Source: Pseudonocardia sp.
GTDB lineage: Bacteria; Actinomycetota; Actinomycetes; Mycobacteriales; Pseudonocardiaceae
DNA: 35,306 nt
Assembly (NCBI GenBank): GCA_016794615.1
Contig: JAEUJO010000012.1
Coordinates: forward strand, 1-35,306
Direction: 5' to 3'
The notes under the pieces are model-generated. The model worked only from the letters and a program-made list of their open reading frames with translations, made no database searches and was not told the DNA's origin. Positions 442 through 23,528 of the stretch are shown here, one piece after another; position 1 is the stretch's first letter, and each line of letters starts with the position of its first letter. The position numbers and the translations under genes are program-made.

Positions 442-1671
442 GTGCGGATCATCCGGCTCGACGGCTCGCCCACGACGGCGGGCATGCTCGCCGCCGCCGT
501 CGCCGAGGCGCTGGACGGCGGCCCGGCGGTGCTGCCTCTCGAGGCCACCGCGCCTCCGTTCGGGCAAGTCCCCGCGCCCGCGGCAGCCGGTCCGGCCGAT
601 CCCCGGCCGACCGATCCGCTGCCCGGACCCGGGGCCGGGGTGCTCCTCGCGACCTCCGGCTCCACCGGCCTGCCGCGGCTGGTCGTGCTCCCGGCCGCCG
701 CGCTGCGGGCCTCCGCGGAGGCCACCGCCGCGCGCCTCGGCGGGCCCGGACGCTGGCTGCTCACCCTTCCTGCCGACCACGTCGCCGGCGTCCAGGTCGT
801 CGTCAGGGCGCTGCTCGCCGGCGCCGCACCCGTCGTGCAGGACCTGCGGGGCGGGTTCCGGCCGGACGGGTTCGCCGCCGCGACGGCCCGGCTCGGCCCC
901 GGCAGGCGGTACACGAGCCTCGTTCCCACCCAGCTCCTGCGGATTCTCGATGCCGGTGGTTCCGCGCTGGAGGCGCTGCGGGGCTACGACGCCGTGCTCG
1001 TCGGCGGCGCCGCCCTCGACGCCGGGCTGCGGGCGCGCGCCGAGGCGGCCGGGGTGCGGATCGTCACGACGTACGGCATGACCGAGACGGCCGGGGGCTG
1101 CGTCTACGACGGGCTGCCGCTCGGCGGGGTACGGGTCCGTCTGGACGCCGAGGGCTGCGTCGTGATCGGCGGCCCGACGCTGGCGGCCGGCTACCTCGAC
1201 GACCCGGCCGCGACCGCAGCCGCGTTCGTCGAGCACGACGACGGCCCCGAGTTCCGCACCGGCGACCTCGGCCGCTGGGTCGACGGCAGGCTCGAGGTGC
1301 TCGGCCGCGTCGACGACGTCATCGTCACGGGCGGGCAGAAGGTCGCCCCGGCCGCCGTCGAGCGCGTGCTGACCGCACAGCCCGGGGTTCGTGCGGCGTG
1401 CGTCGTCGGCCTGCCCGACCCGGAGTGGGGTGCGGTCGTCGCGGCCGCCCTGGTCGTCGACGCCCCACCGGCCGCGGAGGGCCTGCGGGGGGCGGTGCGC
1501 GCCGTCCTCGGCCGGGCCGCGGTACCGCGCGTCCTGGGCACCGTCGACGCCCTGCCGCTGCGCGGGATCGGCAAGCCGGACCGGGCCGCGGTCGCGCGTC
1601 TGCTCGCCGCGAGCAGCCGGGCCGCGGATGCGCCGACGGCCACGGCGCCGGCCGGCCCCCCGGGCTGCTGA
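442..1671 (+). CDS. menE: o-Succinylbenzoate-CoA ligase MenE
   Basis: Adenylate-forming enzyme that converts o-succinylbenzoate, ATP and CoA to OSB-CoA in menaquinone synthesis. The GTG start at 442 is chosen because GGAGGA at 429-434 sits 7 nt upstream; the frame is open back to 289 but that part has no family character. The protein has 409 residues. The nucleotide loop TSGSTGLPR (about 71-79), the TYGMTE motif, the TGDLGRW motif, the hinge GRVDDVIVTGG and the catalytic lysine in GIGKPDR (about K378) are all present, so it should be active. The protein is short for an acyl-CoA ligase, as compact actinobacterial MenE proteins are. The downstream neighbour menA supports the pathway. Confidence 0.92.
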   Translation: MRIIRLDGSPTTAGMLAAAVAEALDGGPAVLPLEATAPPFGQVPAPAAAGPADPRPTDPLPGPGAGVLLATSGSTGLPRLVVLPAAALRASAEATAARLGGPGRWLLTLPADHVAGVQVVVRALLAGAAPVVQDLRGGFRPDGFAAATARLGPGRRYTSLVPTQLLRILDAGGSALEALRGYDAVLVGGAALDAGLRARAEAAGVRIVTTYGMTETAGGCVYDGLPLGGVRVRLDAEGCVVIGGPTLAAGYLDDPAATAAAFVEHDDGPEFRTGDLGRWVDGRLEVLGRVDDVIVTGGQKVAPAAVERVLTAQPGVRAACVVGLPDPEWGAVVAAALVVDAPPAAEGLRGAVRAVLGRAAVPRVLGTVDALPLRGIGKPDRAAVARLLAASSRAADAPTATAPAGPPGC

Positions 1672-16132: not shown

Positions 16133-17109
16133 CGATCTACTCCTGGTTGAGCGTCTACGGAGGGCGTGCCGGTGAGACCTGCGCCACCCGCCATGTCGAG
16201 CAACTCTGCGGCGAGCGCCGCGCCGAGCTTCTCGACGTCGTCGAGGTTGCCGGTGGCCGACGCGCGCAGCAGCGCACCGTCGCCCGTGCCGACCACCGCA
16301 CGCAGGAACACGCGGTCGACGACCCGGCCGTCGTCGTCGAGGTCGGACACCACGTCGGCCAGTGCACCCACGGGGGCGCTGCAGCCGGCTTCCAGCGTCG
16401 CCAGCACCGCCCGCTCGGCGGTGACGGCCGCCCGCGCGCCCACGTCGTCGAGCACCTGCGCGAGCAGGGCGGCCAACGCGGTGTCGGCCGCGCGGCACTC
16501 GACGGCGAGCGCACCCTGCGCGGGTGCGGGCAACATCTGCAGGGGGTCGAGCAGCTCGCCCGCCTCGTCGATACGGCCGAGCCGGCGCAGGCCCGCCGCG
16601 GCGACCACCACGGCGTCGAGCTCGCCGCTGCGGACCTTGCCGATGCGGGTGTCGACGTTGCCGCGGATCGGCACGGTGCGCAGGCCGAGGCCGAGGGCCT
16701 CGAGCTGGGCGACCCGCCGCGGTGACCCGGTACCGACCGTCGCTCCCGCGGGCAGCTCCCCGAGCACCCGTCCGTCCCGGGCGACCAGCGCGTCGCGCGG
16801 ATCCTCCCGGGGCGGGACCGCGGCGATGACGAGCCGCGGGTCGGCGGCCGTCGGGAGGTCCTTGTAGGAGTGCACGGCGAGATCGACCTCACCGGCCACG
16901 AGCACGTCGCGCAGCTGCGAGACGAACACTCCGACGCCGAGCGTGGCGATCGGGGCGGACGAACGGTCACCGGCGGTGCTGATGGTGACCAGCTCGACGG
17001 TGTGGCCGGCATCGCGCAGCCGCTGCGCGACGACCGTGGACTGGGCGACGGCCAGCGCACTGGGCCGGGTGCCGAGGCGGAGTGCCCCGGTCTGGACTCG
17101 AGCGGTCAC
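16129..17109 (-). CDS. hemC: Hydroxymethylbilane synthase (porphobilinogen deaminase) HemC
   Basis: Polymerises four porphobilinogens to hydroxymethylbilane. The 326-residue protein has the catalytic aspartate in HSYKDLP (D84), substrate arginines in [11 protein letters not shown] and PIRGNVDTR, and the cysteine that carries the dipyrromethane cofactor in [10 protein letters not shown] (C243). The GTG start overlaps the hemA stop as GTGA, and its own stop overlaps hemD as ATGA, so expression is coupled through the rex-hemA-hemC-hemD unit. Confidence 0.96.
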
Positions 17110-18524
17110 CGGCGCTCCTCCCGGAGGCTTCCGGGTGCGGCGAAGGTGACGTCTCCGGGATCCGAGATCTCGCGGACGGCCTGCATCGGTGCCTCCAGTG
17201 CCGCGAGCACGTCGCCGTGGCGCTGCACGGCGACCGCGGCGGGCGTCTGCGGGTCCAGCTCGAACAGCTCGCGCAGAGCGTGCGCGTAGCTGCTGCCGTC
17301 CGGCCCCTCGGCCAGGCGCTTGACCTGCACCGTCGGGGTGTGCAGCAGCTTGTCGACGACGCGGCGAACGGTCTGCCCGAACTCCGCGCGGACCGCCGGG
17401 TCCAGCGCGGGCAGCCGCGCGTCGAGCCGCAGCAGCTCGGCGTCGATGACCTCCGACGCGCGGCGGCGCAGCGCCGTCACCGTCGGGGTCACCTCCGCGG
17501 AGCGCCGAGCGGCCAGATACGCCAGCGCCTCCTCGGCGACCAGCTCCTGGGCCGCCGCGACGGCCTCGCCGTGTGGGCGGGGGGCCAGCCGCACCTGCAG
17601 GGTGACCAGGTCGACGACGGTGACACCGGGCAGCGTGGCCACGTCGGGGTCGACGTCGCGGGGCAGTCCGAGGTCGCAGATGGCGAGCGGGCGCCCGTCG
17701 CGAGCGACCACCGCGGCGGCCACGGTCTCGCGGGCGATGACCGTGCCGACGGCACCGGTGCAGGTCACCAGCAGGTCCGCCGTGGCCAGCTCGTCCGCCA
17801 GGTGCTCGATGGGGGCGGAGCGGGCCGCGGTCCCGGTGCGCCGGGTGTTGTGGGCGAGCCGCTGCGCCCGCTCGGCGGACCGGTTCAGCACGACGATCTC
17901 GGTGGCTCCGGCGCGGCGCAGGTGTGCGGCGGCGAGTGCGGCCATCGCCCCGGCACCGACGACGACCGCCCGCACGCCGGCCAGGCCGCGGCCGAGCGCG
18001 TCCGACGCGGCGGCCAGCGCCTCGGAGACGACCGAGGAACCCGCGGCGTCGATGCCGGTCCGGGCATGTACCCGCTTGCCGACCCGCAGCGCCTGCTGCG
18101 CCAGCTCGTGCAGGCTGCGGCCCACCGTGCCCGCGTCGTCCGCCACGGCGTAGGCGGCGCGCAGCTGGCCGAGGATCTGTGCCTCGCCGATCACCATCGA
18201 GTCCAGCCCGGCGGCGACGGCGAACAGGTGCTGCACGGCCGAGCCCGCGTAGTGGACGTACAGGTGCTCGGTGAGCTCGTGCATCGGCAGCCCGGCATGC
18301 CGGCCGAGCACGCCGGAGACGTCGGTGAGACCGCCGTGGAAGGCGTCGACGACCGCGTAGACCTCGATGCGGTTGCAGGTCGACAGCATCATCACCTCGG
18401 TGACGTGGCTGCCCTGCAGCATCTCGTCCAGCAGCTTGGGGATCTCCTCGACCCCGACGGCGGCGCGTTCCAGCAGCTCCACCGGGGCACTGCGGTGCGA
18501 CAGGCCCACCACCAGCACACTCAC
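17106..18524 (-). CDS. hemA: Glutamyl-tRNA reductase HemA
   Basis: Reduces glutamyl-tRNA with NADPH to glutamate-1-semialdehyde, the first committed step of C5 heme synthesis. The 472-residue protein opens [20 protein letters not shown]. The catalytic cysteine is in [13 protein letters not shown] (C50), the family block [16 protein letters not shown] follows, and the NADPH fold is [16 protein letters not shown]. The C-terminal dimerisation helices are complete. GTG start overlaps the rex stop (GTGA). Control is expected from the Rex operator upstream of rex, linking heme supply to redox state. Confidence 0.96.
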
Positions 18525-19339
18525 GACGTCACCACCGCGTGCCTGTTCACGGTGTCGCGGCCAGGATCCGGTGCGGGGCGGACGCCCCGCAGGGAGTGCT
18601 GAGCGGACCCGTCGTGGCCGGATAGGTCACTGCCGGCGAGGTGCCGGCGAGCGACGTGGAAGGCCAGGATCTGCAGCTCCACGGCAAGGTCCACTTTCCG
18701 CACCTCCACCTGCTCGGGTACCTGGAGGACCACCGGGGCGAAGTTCAAGATGCTGGAGACACCCGCTCGGACCAGCAGGTCGCAGGCGCCCTGCGCCGCA
18801 GGGGCGGGTGTGGCGATCATGCCGATCGTCACGTCGCGTTCGCGACATGTCTGCGGGATGTCCCGCGCATGTTCCACGACGATTCCGTTGATCTTGATGC
18901 CGACCAGGTCCGGGTCGACGTCGAACAACGCCGTCACCGGGAAGCCTCGGCCCCCGAACCCGCCGTAGCCGGCGAGCGCATGCCCGAGGTTGCCGATCCC
19001 GACCAGCGCGACGGGCTGGCGGTGGGTGAGGCCGAGCGCCGACTCCAGGTGCCGCAGCAGCGGCCCGACCTCGTAGCCGACCCCGCGGATGCCGTGCGAG
19101 CCGACGTAGGACAGGTCCTTGCGGAGCATGGCCGAGTTGACCCCGCAGACGGCCGCCAGCTCGTCGCTCGACGCGGTCTCCGTGCCCCGCTCGACGAGCT
19201 CGCCGAGAATGCGCAGGTAGACCGCGAGGCGGGCGACCGTGGCCTGCGGGACGGCCCGCGTGCGTGCCCGGCCGGTGCCCGTGACGCGGGAGGCCCCGAG
19301 GGCGGGGGCACCCTCCGGGCCTGCCTGCGGCGACGTCAC
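18521..19339 (-). CDS. rex: Redox-sensing transcriptional repressor Rex
   Basis: Dimeric repressor that binds DNA when NAD+ is high and lets go when NADH rises. The 272-residue protein has an Arg/Ala-rich N-terminus (1-30), a winged helix domain (about 31-90; [34 protein letters not shown]), then a Rossmann NADH domain starting [14 protein letters not shown] (GxGxxG 114-119) with [13 protein letters not shown] roughly 45-residue tail after the domain-swap helix ([12 protein letters not shown]...) is longer than in minimal Rex proteins. GTG at 19339 is used; the ribosome site is weak. It is first gene of rex-hemA-hemC-hemD. Confidence 0.95.
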
Positions 19340-19440
19340 GCTGACGCACTCCTCGGACGATCGAGATCGGGGTGGTCGCGGTCGAGGTACCCCGCTGCGG
19401 TGAACGCAGGAAAGCCGGGTATTGACGGCGACGCTCCGCC

Positions 19441-19469
19441 ACGGTAGTCGCTCGTGAACGGGCGCACAA
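19441..19469 (-). promoter_or_regulatory. Candidate rex-hemACD promoter
   Basis: On the minus strand a -35-like TTGTGC (19469-19464) and a -10 TACCGT (19446-19441) are separated by 17 nt. Transcription would start near 19434, giving a leader of about 95 nt before rex. The -35 and most of the spacer are covered by the Rex operator match. Confidence 0.6.
19452..19469. promoter_or_regulatory. Rex operator (ROP) candidate
   Basis: The minus strand reads TTGTGCGCCCGTTCACGA. Against the known consensus TTGTGAANNNNTTCACAA the left half matches 5 of 7 and the right half 6 of 7, with the right 4-nt spacing. It overlaps the candidate promoter 113 nt upstream of rex. Autoregulation through such a site is established for Streptomyces rex-hemACD. 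Confidence 0.75.
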
Positions 19470-19615
19470 AGTTGCGATCTTGAGCCGGATCGTGCTCGTG
19501 CGCGGGTGCACCGGTGGGCGCGCGGGGGCTACCGCTGGTCGTGGAAGCCCACGATGCGGTCACCACGACCGCACGCCGGCCGGTCGCGCCGTCGGGATCC
19601 GGTCTCGCCGCGGAG

Positions 19616-19674
19616 ATGTAGCGAAAGCGGCGTTGGGTGCACTGGGCGCACCGAAAGCCGCTTTCGCTACATCC
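19616..19674. repeat. 59-nt long palindromic element (REP-like or terminator)
   Basis: Perfect 17-bp arms, GATGTAGCGAAAGCGGC (19616-19632) and its complement (19658-19674), enclose a 25-nt loop. The loop holds an inner 5-bp stem GGTGC/GCACC with matching 4-nt side loops. It lies 77 nt past the glutaredoxin stop and 147 nt before the rex Rex operator. The rest of 19340-19750 holds the rex promoter region and GC-rich sequence (19675-19750) without a gene. Confidence 0.85.
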
Positions 19675-19750
19675 GGGCCCGGCGGGCCGGGGGTCGGGCG
19701 GGCCGGGTCGAGTCGAGCCGGGGCCGGGCGGGCCCGCGGGCACCGGACGG

Positions 19751-20017
19751 TCAGCCGGAGCCGAGGAGAGCCGTACGGAAGCGCTGCTCCTCGACCTTCC
19801 AGAAGCCGTGCTCGCGGCCGTCGATGTCGATCACCGGAACGCGGTCGCCGTACTCGGCGCGCAGATCCGGATCGGCGTCGACGTCGACGGCGCGCCAGGG
19901 CTTCCCCAGCTCACCGCAGATGCGGGCGACGTCCGCCTCCGCCTTCTCGCACGCGGGACACCCGACCCGGGTGTAGACCGTCACCCCGGACTCCCGGGCC
20001 GCCGTCTCCTCGGACAC
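19751..20017 (-). CDS. Glutaredoxin family protein
   Basis: An 88-residue thioredoxin-fold protein. The redox motif CPAC (C20, C23) follows the first strand VTVYTRVG, and the glutathione-site-like DRVPVIDIDG carries the cis-proline. The GTG start at 20017 is fixed by GGAGGGA 7 nt upstream. The position beside hemA/rex matches mycobacterial Rv0508-like proteins. The partner thiol is not known; actinobacteria use mycothiol, so it could be mycoredoxin-like, though CPAC and the C-terminal end EQRFRTALLGSG are not diagnostic. Confidence 0.88.
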   Translation of the reverse strand: MSEETAARESGVTVYTRVGCPACEKAEADVARICGELGKPWRAVDVDADPDLRAEYGDRVPVIDIDGREHGFWKVEEQRFRTALLGSG

Positions 20018-20042: not shown

Positions 20043-21923
20043 TCAGGCTCGCGGCGGCCGGTCCACCAGCAGGTGCCGGGCCAGGCGTCCCGCCACCGTG
20101 CGCGGCAGTTCGTCGACGAACACCACCTGCGCCGGCACCTTGAACCGGGCCAGCCGGGTGCGGCAGTGCGCCCGCACGGCGTCCGTGTCCAGCTCCGCAC
20201 CGGCCACCCGCACGACGACCGCACGCACCACCTGCCCCGTGCGCTCGTCGGGCACGCCGACCACGGCCGCCTCGGCGACGGCGGGCAGCTCCCCCAACAC
20301 CCGCTCGACCTCGTGCGGGTAGACGGTGAAGCCGCTGACCACCACCAGGTCCGACGACCGGTCGACCAGGTGCAGCGCACCCGAGCCGTCGAGGAGGCCC
20401 ATGTCCGAGGTGACGAACCAGCCGTCGGCGCCGGGGCCTCCGGTGGGACCGGGCCAGTAGCCGGAGAAGAGGTTCGGACCGCGCAGGGCGATGAGCCCGG
20501 CGTCGCTCGCCGGATCGGCGGGGCCCTCGACGTCCTGTGCGTCGTCGATCATGTCGCCGACCGGGTCGCCGGTCCGCACCGCGGCCCGGACCTCGGTGGC
20601 GGCGCGCTCGGCGGCCGCGCGGACCTCGACGGCGGCACGCTCGGCCACGGCGCGGAACTCCGCGACGCCCCGTTCCGCCACCGCGAGGACGTCCGTGGCG
20701 ACGCGGCTCGCGGTGGTGCGGACCTCGATCGCGCCGGTGCCGGGTGCTCCCGCCTCAGGGTGGGTGCCGGTCGCTCCGGATCCGGTCACGGCCGGCTCCG
20801 GAGCGCTGCTGTCGACGGCGTCGGCCCCGGCGACCGCCGGTTCCGGTACCCCCGCGACCTCCTGCTCCCCTGCGGACGGCTCGCCTGCCGACGAAGCCGG
20901 GTCGGCCGCTGCAGCGAGTGCGGCGGGTTGCTGCGTCATCGGCCGGCCGTCGCGGTCCACGAGCCGCAGCTCGATCCCCGGCAGCGGGCGACCCACCGAT
21001 CCCGGGACCGTGACGCCGTCGATCGGCGTGCTCGTCACGACCGGGCCGGCCTCCGTCAGGCCGTAGCCCTCGACGATGCGGTGCCCGGTCGCCTCCCGGA
21101 AGGCCGCCGCCCACGGCCGCGGCAGCGGCACCCCGCCACACGTGCAGAGCCGCAGTCCGGCCAGGGCGGTGCGCAGGCGCTCGGGCGGGAGGTCGAGCAG
21201 CGCCCGATAGGTCGACGGCACGCCGGCGAGTCCGCTGACCCGGTGCCGCGCGACCGTGTCGGCGAGCTCCTCGGCGTCGGGCCGCCCGGGTCCCGGCAGC
21301 ACGGCCGTCGCACCGGCCCAGCAGACCTGGAACAGGCCGGCGGCCAGCCCGTAGGCGTGGAACAGCGGCTGGGCGAGGAGCACGCGGTCCACGGGGGTGA
21401 CGGGAGCCGGGCGGAGCGCCGCTGCCTGCGCCCGGTTGGCCAGCAGGGCCCGGTGCGACAGGCACACGGCCCGCGCCTCGGAGGTGTAGAGCAGCAGCGC
21501 GACGTCCTCCCCGCCGCCGACCGCGGCCAGCGGCGCGCCGCGGTCGGTCAGGTCGGGCGGTCCGACGACCTCGACCTCCGCGGGCGACGCCTCGTCGTCC
21601 ACCAGGAGCCGAGGGGTGCAGTGGGCGACGACGGCGCCGACGTCACCCGGCCCCACGGGCACCGCCACCGCGCCCGCCCGCAGCGCACCGAGCACCGCGA
21701 CCGTGAGGGCGGGGCCGCGCGCGCAGCGGATCACGACGCGGTCGCCTGCCGCGACCCCGGCGCCCGCGAGCCTGCGCGCCTCCGCGGACACCGCGGCGTC
21801 GAGTTCGCCCCACGTGAGCGTGGCGTCACTCGCCGCGTCGATCAGCGCCGGATGGCCGGCCTGGCGGGCGGCGGCCGCCTCGACCAGGTCGGCCAGGTGC
21901 GTCGGGCGATTCGTGCTGTCCAC
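20043..21923 (-). CDS. Divergent AMP-binding (acyl-CoA synthetase-like) protein with large insertion
   Basis: The 626-residue protein has the adenylate-forming fold: WGELDAAV, DRVVIRCARGPAL, LFHAYGLAAGLF, GVPSTYRALL, EGYGLTEAGPVV (285-296) and SGFTVYPHEVE (530-540). Three sites are abnormal. The phosphate-binding loop, normally YTSGTTGxPKxV, is cut down to YTSEARAV (146-153). The hinge region reads DRSSDLVV. The C-terminal catalytic lysine (PRTxxGK) is Arg613. Residues about 331-474 are an insertion: a Pro/Ala/Glu linker, then an amphipathic helical repeat AVAERGVAEFRAVAERAAVEV. GTG start has GGAGGT 7 nt upstream. It is probably a non-catalytic or altered paralogue; a sequencing error cannot explain all three changes. 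Confidence 0.85.
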   Translation of the reverse strand: MDSTNRPTHLADLVEAAAARQAGHPALIDAASDATLTWGELDAAVSAEARRLAGAGVAAGDRVVIRCARGPALTVAVLGALRAGAVAVPVGPGDVGAVVAHCTPRLLVDDEASPAEVEVVGPPDLTDRGAPLAAVGGGEDVALLLYTSEARAVCLSHRALLANRAQAAALRPAPVTPVDRVLLAQPLFHAYGLAAGLFQVCWAGATAVLPGPGRPDAEELADTVARHRVSGLAGVPSTYRALLDLPPERLRTALAGLRLCTCGGVPLPRPWAAAFREATGHRIVEGYGLTEAGPVVTSTPIDGVTVPGSVGRPLPGIELRLVDRDGRPMTQQPAALAAAADPASSAGEPSAGEQEVAGVPEPAVAGADAVDSSAPEPAVTGSGATGTHPEAGAPGTGAIEVRTTASRVATDVLAVAERGVAEFRAVAERAAVEVRAAAERAATEVRAAVRTGDPVGDMIDDAQDVEGPADPASDAGLIALRGPNLFSGYWPGPTGGPGADGWFVTSDMGLLDGSGALHLVDRSSDLVVVSGFTVYPHEVERVLGELPAVAEAAVVGVPDERTGQVVRAVVVRVAGAELDTDAVRAHCRTRLARFKVPAQVVFVDELPRTVAGRLARHLLVDRPPRA

Positions 21924-22601
21924 GGCGGCGACCTCCTCACGCGGGTCCTGGGATCAACGCCGGAGCGCGCGGAGGCGGTGATCCACAGGTGTCTCCCGCC
22001 AGTCTTGCGCGCCCCGCCCGATCCCGGCGACCGCGGTCCGTCAACGAACGCAAAGTGACCGCCTGTCGCACACGACCTCACGCTGAGCGCAGCCCGGGCA
22101 CGCTGCCGGTTCGTCACGGACCGCCGGACGATGCTGACCGATCGTCACTGCCCACTCGGCGGTTGCTGCGGAGGGTGAGCAGGCACGCCGGTCGTGTGCT
22201 CCATCGCCACAGCCGACCCGACGCGCGACCCGAGGGTGTGACGACGCCGCGGATCGTTCCGGCGCCCCGCACCACTCACTCCCGATGTCGACCGGGAGAC
22301 GTGACCCGCCCGATGCGCGTTTCCCGGCTGCTCCGCGGTGATCCCGCTTCCACCGGCGTGGACCGGCCGGCCCCGGTCCCGCGCACCGGCCACCCGTTCC
22401 GGGTGCGACACCCAGCACCGCCGTGCCGGCTGCCGCTGACCCGGCCGGTGCACCCGCCCGCGGATCCGACGGCGGCCGGCGCCCTCGCTCCCCCCGGCCT
22501 GCCCGGGGTGGAGCCGGGCTGACGACCGGGCCGCTCCGCCCGACCGCGCCGAGCGGCGACGTTAGGCTGACGCCACGTTCGCGGTCGAGGCGGAGGCACT
22601 G
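21924..22601. other. Intergenic region without a supported gene
   Basis: 678 nt between the divergent AMP-binding and HAD genes. Open frames here encode Arg/Pro-rich peptides without family character. A -10-like TAGGCT at 22563-22568 could serve the HAD gene. No terminator, RNA or repeat is evident. Confidence 0.5.
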
Positions 22602-23528
22602 GTGGGAGCAGGAGAGCGGGGTCGTCCCGAGGTCGCAGGCATCGCGGAGTCGTCGAGCGTGCTCGACGCCGTGACGGCCCTCGACCCGGCCGTCCGGGCC
22701 GGTGAGGCGGCCGCTGCCGCGGCCGTTGCGGCCGAACGGAGCGTGCTCCCGCTCGCCCCGCCGACGGACCTGACGGCCGCCGCGTTCTTCGACGTCGACA
22801 ACACGATGATGGTCGGTGCGTCGATCTTCCACTTCGCCCGCGGCCTCGCGGCTCGGAAGTTCTTCACGACCTCGGACATGCTGGGCTTCGTCTGGCAGCA
22901 GACGAAGTTCCGGATCGGGGGCCGCGAGCTCAGCTACGGCCACACCACCGGGCGTGACACCGCGCTGTCGTTCGTCGCGGGACGCCCGGTCGCCGACATC
23001 GTCGAGCTCGGCGAGGAGATCTACGACGAGCTGATGGCGGACCGGATCTGGGCAGGCACGCGCGCGCTGGCCCAGATGCACCTCGACGCCGGGCAGCGGG
23101 TCTGGCTGGTCACGGCCACACCCGTGGAGCTGGCACTGATCATCGCGCGGCGGCTGGGGCTGACCGGCGCCCTCGGCACGGTGGCCGAGAGCGTGGACGG
23201 GCACTACACCGGCCGGCTGGTCGGGGAGGTCCTGCACGGCCCGGCGAAGGCGCATGCGGTGCGCGCGCTGGCCGTCACCGAGGGCCTGAACCTGCGCCGC
23301 TGCACGGCGTACTCGGATTCGGTGAACGACGTGCCGATGCTGTCCGCGGTCGGGACGGCCGTCGCGGTCAACCCGGACCGCGACCTGCGCGACATCGCCC
23401 GCGCCCGCGGCTGGCCGATCCGCGACTTCCGCACGGGCCGGCGCGCCACGCGCATCGCGGTCCCCGCACTGCTCGGGGCGGGCGCGGTGGCGGGAGCGGT
23501 GGCCGCAGGCCTGCGCCGCTGGCGGTAG
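22602..23528 (+). CDS. HAD-IB family phosphatase (SerB1-like)
   Basis: Haloacid dehalogenase phosphatase of 308 residues. Motif I is FFDVDNTMM (nucleophile D64, acid D66), motif II is in LVTATP (T171), the motif III region has K217, and the metal aspartates are in [11 protein letters not shown] (D239, D243). The cap is the small helical IB type. The Asn in DVDNT is typical of SerB1/CicA-like proteins, which are not proven serine phosphatases. An Ala-rich N-terminal 55 residues and a C-terminal hydrophobic helix (about 284-304) suggest membrane association. GTG start with GGAGG 5 nt upstream. It is convergent with the acyltransferase gene, which suggests a lipid-phosphate substrate. Confidence 0.9.

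Follow-up and report, generated by a model that had tools for sequence, protein, structure and literature searches.

A candidate pseudo-acyl-CoA ligase retained after loss of its ATP-using elements in two sister species of Pseudonocardia

The window, the whole stretch of 35,306 nt of Pseudonocardia DNA that was analysed, encodes on its reverse strand (20043–21923) a 626-residue AMP-binding protein of the ANL fold which, from its sequence, Pfam matches and a structural model, is predicted to be non-adenylating. We put at roughly 60% the probability that in the window's species (genome G000) and its sister species (G018) this protein is a non-adenylating pseudo-acyl-CoA ligase retained for a non-catalytic role.

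The reading frame opens with GTG and has an AGGAGGT ribosome site just 5' of it, and in strand, length, start and ribosome site it is as described in an earlier note on this DNA. Its product matches AMP-binding (PF00501, 4e-59) and AMP-binding_C (PF13193, 1.9e-20) in Pfam, which places it in the ANL superfamily. Both fold motifs named in that note, E285-GYGLTEAGP and SGFTVYPHEVE, are real, as are the altered motifs Y146-T-S-E-A-R-A-V153 and G612-R613, and the A5 segment Y287-GLTE291, the A7 Asp507 and the hinge Asp521-Arg522 of competent ligases are kept. An AF2 model based on four sequences (pLDDT 48) was discarded, and the model used, from a 29-sequence alignment, has a mean pLDDT of 81. Its best match in the PDB is feruloyl-CoA synthetase of Amycolatopsis thermoflava (8wev; Z 47.5, 2.3 Å over 456 residues), with MatB (4fut) near the top of the fold matches (Z 46.4), and as the model superposes on both at these scores the ANL fold is predicted to be intact, which is how the structure prediction proposed in the note turned out. 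However, the feruloyl-CoA synthetase depositions (8weu/8wev) describe a CoA synthetase and contain bound AMP, whereas the window protein has lost the elements that use ATP. The top sequence match among solved structures is MatB of R. palustris (RpMatB; 4fuq/4fut, 3e-60), with which the window protein shares the two-domain architecture and adenosine-site residues, although it lacks the A3 loop and A10 lysine, carries a 144-residue loop expansion and has Gly286 in place of MatB Arg299, the residue before the YG of A5. Identity as a malonyl-CoA synthetase MatB was rejected, with a score of 269.8 bits against the NCBIfam NF005702 cut-off of 558 bits.

The A3 phosphate loop, TSGTTGxP(K/R)G in competent ligases, is degenerate in the window protein. 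Alignment shows residues 147–153 (TSEARAV; 21465–21485, reverse strand) to have lost four residues relative to TSGTTGxPRGV, so that the loop, YTS----EARAV, is shorter by four than in every intact orthologue from the genus, and in the model a tight turn joins strands 141–148 and 151–156 at the place of the ATP phosphate loop. Likewise, Arg613 (20085–20087, reverse strand) aligns with the A10 catalytic lysine. The earlier note had claimed the shortening of YTSGTTGxPK to YTSEARAV, the replacement of the PRTxxGK lysine and the loss of both catalytic elements from a retained scaffold, and all three claims hold, with fold and AMP-site residues remaining. Alignment with MatB maps His189, Glu285, Tyr287 and Thr290 to RpMatB H207, E298, Y300 and T303, and Asp507 and Arg522, which from established knowledge of the ANL family we take to be ribose contacts, are also kept.

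The deleted loop positions include the equivalents of RpMatB T166 and T167, which hold ATP by its beta and gamma phosphates (PMC5479551). In that enzyme T166A and T167A weaken ATP binding ~17-fold, T167A leaves AMP binding nearly unchanged, and K488A, at the A10 lysine, blocks adenylation with ATP still bound at 6 µM (PMC5479551), while in FadD13 K487A removes 96% of activity (PMC2793005). As the deleted threonines and lost lysine correspond to these mutated residues, we expect that the window protein does not use ATP, and on the same comparison it could bind AMP or acyl-adenylate. An ATP biosensor engineered from RpMatB K488A is altered at the same lysine, and its ligase fold binds nucleotide but does not adenylate (PMC5479551). 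The biosensor keeps its phosphate loop and so senses ATP, whereas any ligands bound by the window protein would more probably be of the AMP type.

The comparison covered 59 orthologues from the genus, the window's own included, in which 62 genomes were searched, together with five orthologues from outside the family but within the order. Outside G000 and G018 the full-length A3 loop is present in 57 of 57 genus orthologues and the A10 lysine in all 55 that are readable at that site, and both are kept in the five from other families; among the 59, only the two sister species lack both elements. Intact genus orthologues (for example L043 in G077 and L003 in G015) occupy the same glutaredoxin-adjacent locus, have a linker at the position of the expanded loop and are roughly 55–69% identical to the window protein by segment, but differ in their full TSGTTGxPRGV loop, PRTPTGK lysine and short linker of 24–47 residues. 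In G018 the loop reads YSSAT---PRGV, with three residues deleted, followed by GR at the A10 site. Common to both species are the lysine-to-arginine change, N533T in the A8 motif (residues 528–534, VVSGFTV, by alignment; 20322–20342, reverse strand), a homologous insert and other changes at otherwise invariant sites, with departures from genus-invariant positions at 18 (G000) and 21 (G018) sites against a median of one.

The two species are monophyletic (support 1.0), and G077, which branches next, is intact. The alignment suggested in the earlier note thus finds loop loss, lysine-to-arginine change and insert together in both sister species. The note had also set intact orthologues in sister species against its reading; the nearest sister lacks the elements too, although they are present in G077 and the remaining genus members, which indicates a lineage-specific loss and not a family trait. 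Sampled AMP-binding paralogues have a recognisable intact loop in nine of ten cases in G000 and nine of nine in G018, which makes the loss particular to this gene. At a strict threshold, 200 genomes of the family yielded no further close copy, but most intact genus members fell below that threshold too, so the absence carries little weight. On these alignments the simplest history would be a single inactivation in the common ancestor, with the loop trimmed further in the window's species. As the deletions differ (four and three residues), the loop may have been lost in part independently, after the two species separated, with trimming occurring separately after a common loss of the lysine, and G018, which retains more of the loop (AT-PRGV), may have undergone a less complete loss.

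Alignment and model both place an expanded loop at residues 331–474 (20502–20933, reverse strand), between predicted strands 318–322 and 476–481 and ~47 residues before the hinge Asp521-Arg522. The earlier note had put this insert before the C-terminal subdomain, but it lies within the N-terminal domain, where it enlarges a mostly acidic linker present in the other genus orthologues, the length between fixed flanks being 155 aa here and 93 aa in G018 against the 24–47 aa elsewhere in the genus. The amphipathic repeat that the note assigned to the whole of ~331–474 is real but confined to residues ~397–451, composed of 11-mer units such as VRAAAERAATE, and coincides with a predicted 55-residue helix (residues 396–450; 20574–20738, reverse strand; pLDDT ~74–89), whereas residues 336–397 and 452–471 have low model confidence and are probably disordered. 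Autocorrelation at period 11 is 0.50 (0.54 in G018), compared with 0.31 or less for all other periods between 3 and 15, and the amphipathic moment stands out against shuffles (p 0.006, and 0.025 in G018). The helix therefore has the 11-residue period and amphipathic moment of membrane-binding 11-mer helices, with lipid binding itself only putative. Perilipins have an eleven-residue amphipathic repeat likewise (PMC10238389), a likeness in repeat period only; the insert is Ala-rich. A 33-bp tandem repeat occurs in the insert DNA of both species, and the two inserts are homologous (73% identical over 79 aligned residues). No Pfam domain reached cut-off in the insert and its own genome holds no second copy. 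Being amphipathic and, in the model, helical, it permits sensor, membrane or partner roles.

Among other explanations, we think it rather unlikely that the gene is in slow decay towards a pseudogene in a reduced-genome lineage, with the insert a neutral expansion of the 33-bp repeat in a disordered loop. The neighbouring genes hemA (glutamyl-tRNA reductase; 17106–18524, reverse strand) and rex (redox repressor; 18521–19339, reverse strand) were used as rate controls. Four-fold and synonymous sites are near saturation between G000 and G018, which makes exact omega values unreliable, and point estimates from YN00 and GY94 were often undefined for this reason, so only likelihood ratios and NG86 ratios were used. 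The two proteins are 70–73% identical, where a neutral simulation predicts 12–19%. NG86 dN/dS is 0.23 in the N-domain, 0.21 in the insert and 0.36 in the C-domain, compared with 0.26 for hemA and 0.30 for rex, and codon-model likelihood ratios of 252 (N-domain), 60 (insert) and 83 (C-domain) reject omega = 1 in all three segments. The gene is thus under purifying selection, which disfavours simple pseudogene decay, as the earlier note had supposed; the conservation of the aligned insert, frames that are open in both species and a GC3 of 0.92, like that of neighbouring genes, also argue against decay. The catalytic residues have been lost in a gene that is under purifying selection, part of which could predate the loop loss and the inactivation.

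Branch and segment rates speak on both sides. The ratio of AMP-protein to hemA rate is 1.40 in the N-domain, inside the intact-pair range of 1.26–1.87, and 1.55 in the C-domain, above every intact pair (0.72–1.17); judged by these rates the C-domain, bearer of the lost lysine, has relaxed, which would fit slow decay and would also follow from a loss of catalysis. On the stem, the AMP protein has a branch length about 2.4-fold that of hemA and rex combined (0.345 against 0.144), and the G018 tip is still fast (0.312 against 0.167), both in favour of decay, but the G000 tip is no longer than that of the controls (0.199 against 0.234). Rapid change on the stem and later constraint are better explained by a change of function than by decay, though this falls short of proof.

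The locus carries further signs of loss that would suit decay. The orthologous loci have in common genes for an SDR, an acyltransferase and a HAD protein on one side of the AMP gene and rex-hemA on the other. In other genus loci, genes for a BldN-like ECF sigma factor and a DUF5667 (RsbN-like) protein sit between the AMP and HAD genes, and both are gone from the window (21923–22602) and from G018. Of the sequence upstream of the deleted sigma gene, a 43-bp remnant persists at 22293–22335 (forward strand; 86% identity to L053 10335–10377), and a promoter and terminator scan of 21700–22700 found nothing. The best remaining sigma matches are 35–37% identical in G000 and G018 against 72–74% in G077 and G020. 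In Streptomyces, aerial growth is under the control of BldN (PMC4255298), so complex development may have been abandoned in this lineage. Likewise, genes for a SorA-like molybdenum oxidoreductase and a fasciclin-domain protein, which lie between glutaredoxin and rex in other genus members (L053 5632–8093), are absent at window 19339–19751, and the G018 locus has no space for the pair. G000 has 27 AMP-binding domain matches and G018 has 15, against 73 in G077, also counting towards decay and in line with genome sizes of 4.4 and 3.4 Mb, smaller than the 6.1 Mb of G077. Part of a gene for o-succinylbenzoate-CoA ligase (MenE, PRK07824) lies at window 610–1194 (forward strand).

The gene's immediate partner has been kept. 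A glutaredoxin-like (DUF836) gene (19751–20017, reverse strand) lies 25 nt downstream of the AMP gene and is probably co-transcribed with it, and the two adjoin in 44 of 44 loci checked, five other families included. With rex and hemA beyond it, the neighbourhood is the one the earlier note had described.

We regard as doubtful a half-reaction enzyme that no longer adenylates yet moves the acyl group from another enzyme's acyl-AMP to an acceptor, CoA or some other. Adenylation suffers far more than thioester formation when the A10 lysine is lost, and in firefly luciferase and PrpE it is chiefly the first half-reaction that is lost in such mutants (PMC11255334); the retained adenosine-site residues would also suit such an enzyme. 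However, the C-domain, whose rotation thioester formation requires, is the most relaxed segment, N533T alters the A8 motif in both species, and free acyl-AMP would be unusual as a common intermediate. A full acyl-CoA ligase still working with a shortened loop and an arginine is very unlikely: genus orthologues already have Arg and not Lys at the loop end (PRGV), which suggests some tolerance, but loop length and the A10 lysine are kept in all other orthologues, and homologue mutants lose activity or ATP affinity. An assembly or sequencing artefact is hardly credible even though G000 and G018 are both draft assemblies of >300 contigs, since the in-frame deletion, derived substitutions and homologous insert are common to a second, separate genome and so appear inherited as a set.

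If the protein is a pseudo-acyl-CoA ligase, as we favour, then an old actinobacterial acyl-CoA-ligase-like enzyme would have lost acyl-adenylate formation from ATP in two small-genome sister species. By analogy with the homologue mutants, the beta and gamma phosphates of ATP would no longer be held once the loop threonines are gone, and absence of the A10 lysine would block adenylation, while with His189, Glu285, Tyr287, Thr290, Asp507 and Arg522 in place the N-domain may still bind AMP, acyl-adenylate or the acid. The long amphipathic helix may tether the protein to a membrane or partner, and ligand binding and tether together could serve in regulation or as a scaffold together with the glutaredoxin encoded next to it. 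More speculatively, loss of loop and lysine might have made the protein an AMP- or acyl-adenylate-responsive switch or scaffold, with domain movement relayed via the 11-mer helix to the membrane or glutaredoxin. The pseudoenzyme reading draws on a set of changes known from two species only, of a shrunken-genome lineage that has lost neighbouring genes. Our literature search found no natural pseudo-ANL enzyme on point, and published cases may still exist.

Acyl-CoA ligases and their relatives are very common in bacteria and usually annotated as active from a fold match, and from such a match alone the window protein too would be annotated as active. In at least six actinobacterial families (L002–L045) an acyl-CoA-ligase-like gene and a DUF836 glutaredoxin gene behind it form a conserved pair. 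Within this pair the window protein would offer a polarised case, in which the chemistry appears lost in two sister species and the protein kept by selection. An intact orthologue stands just one node away, so that the transition from enzyme to non-enzyme could be tested by comparing two purified proteins.
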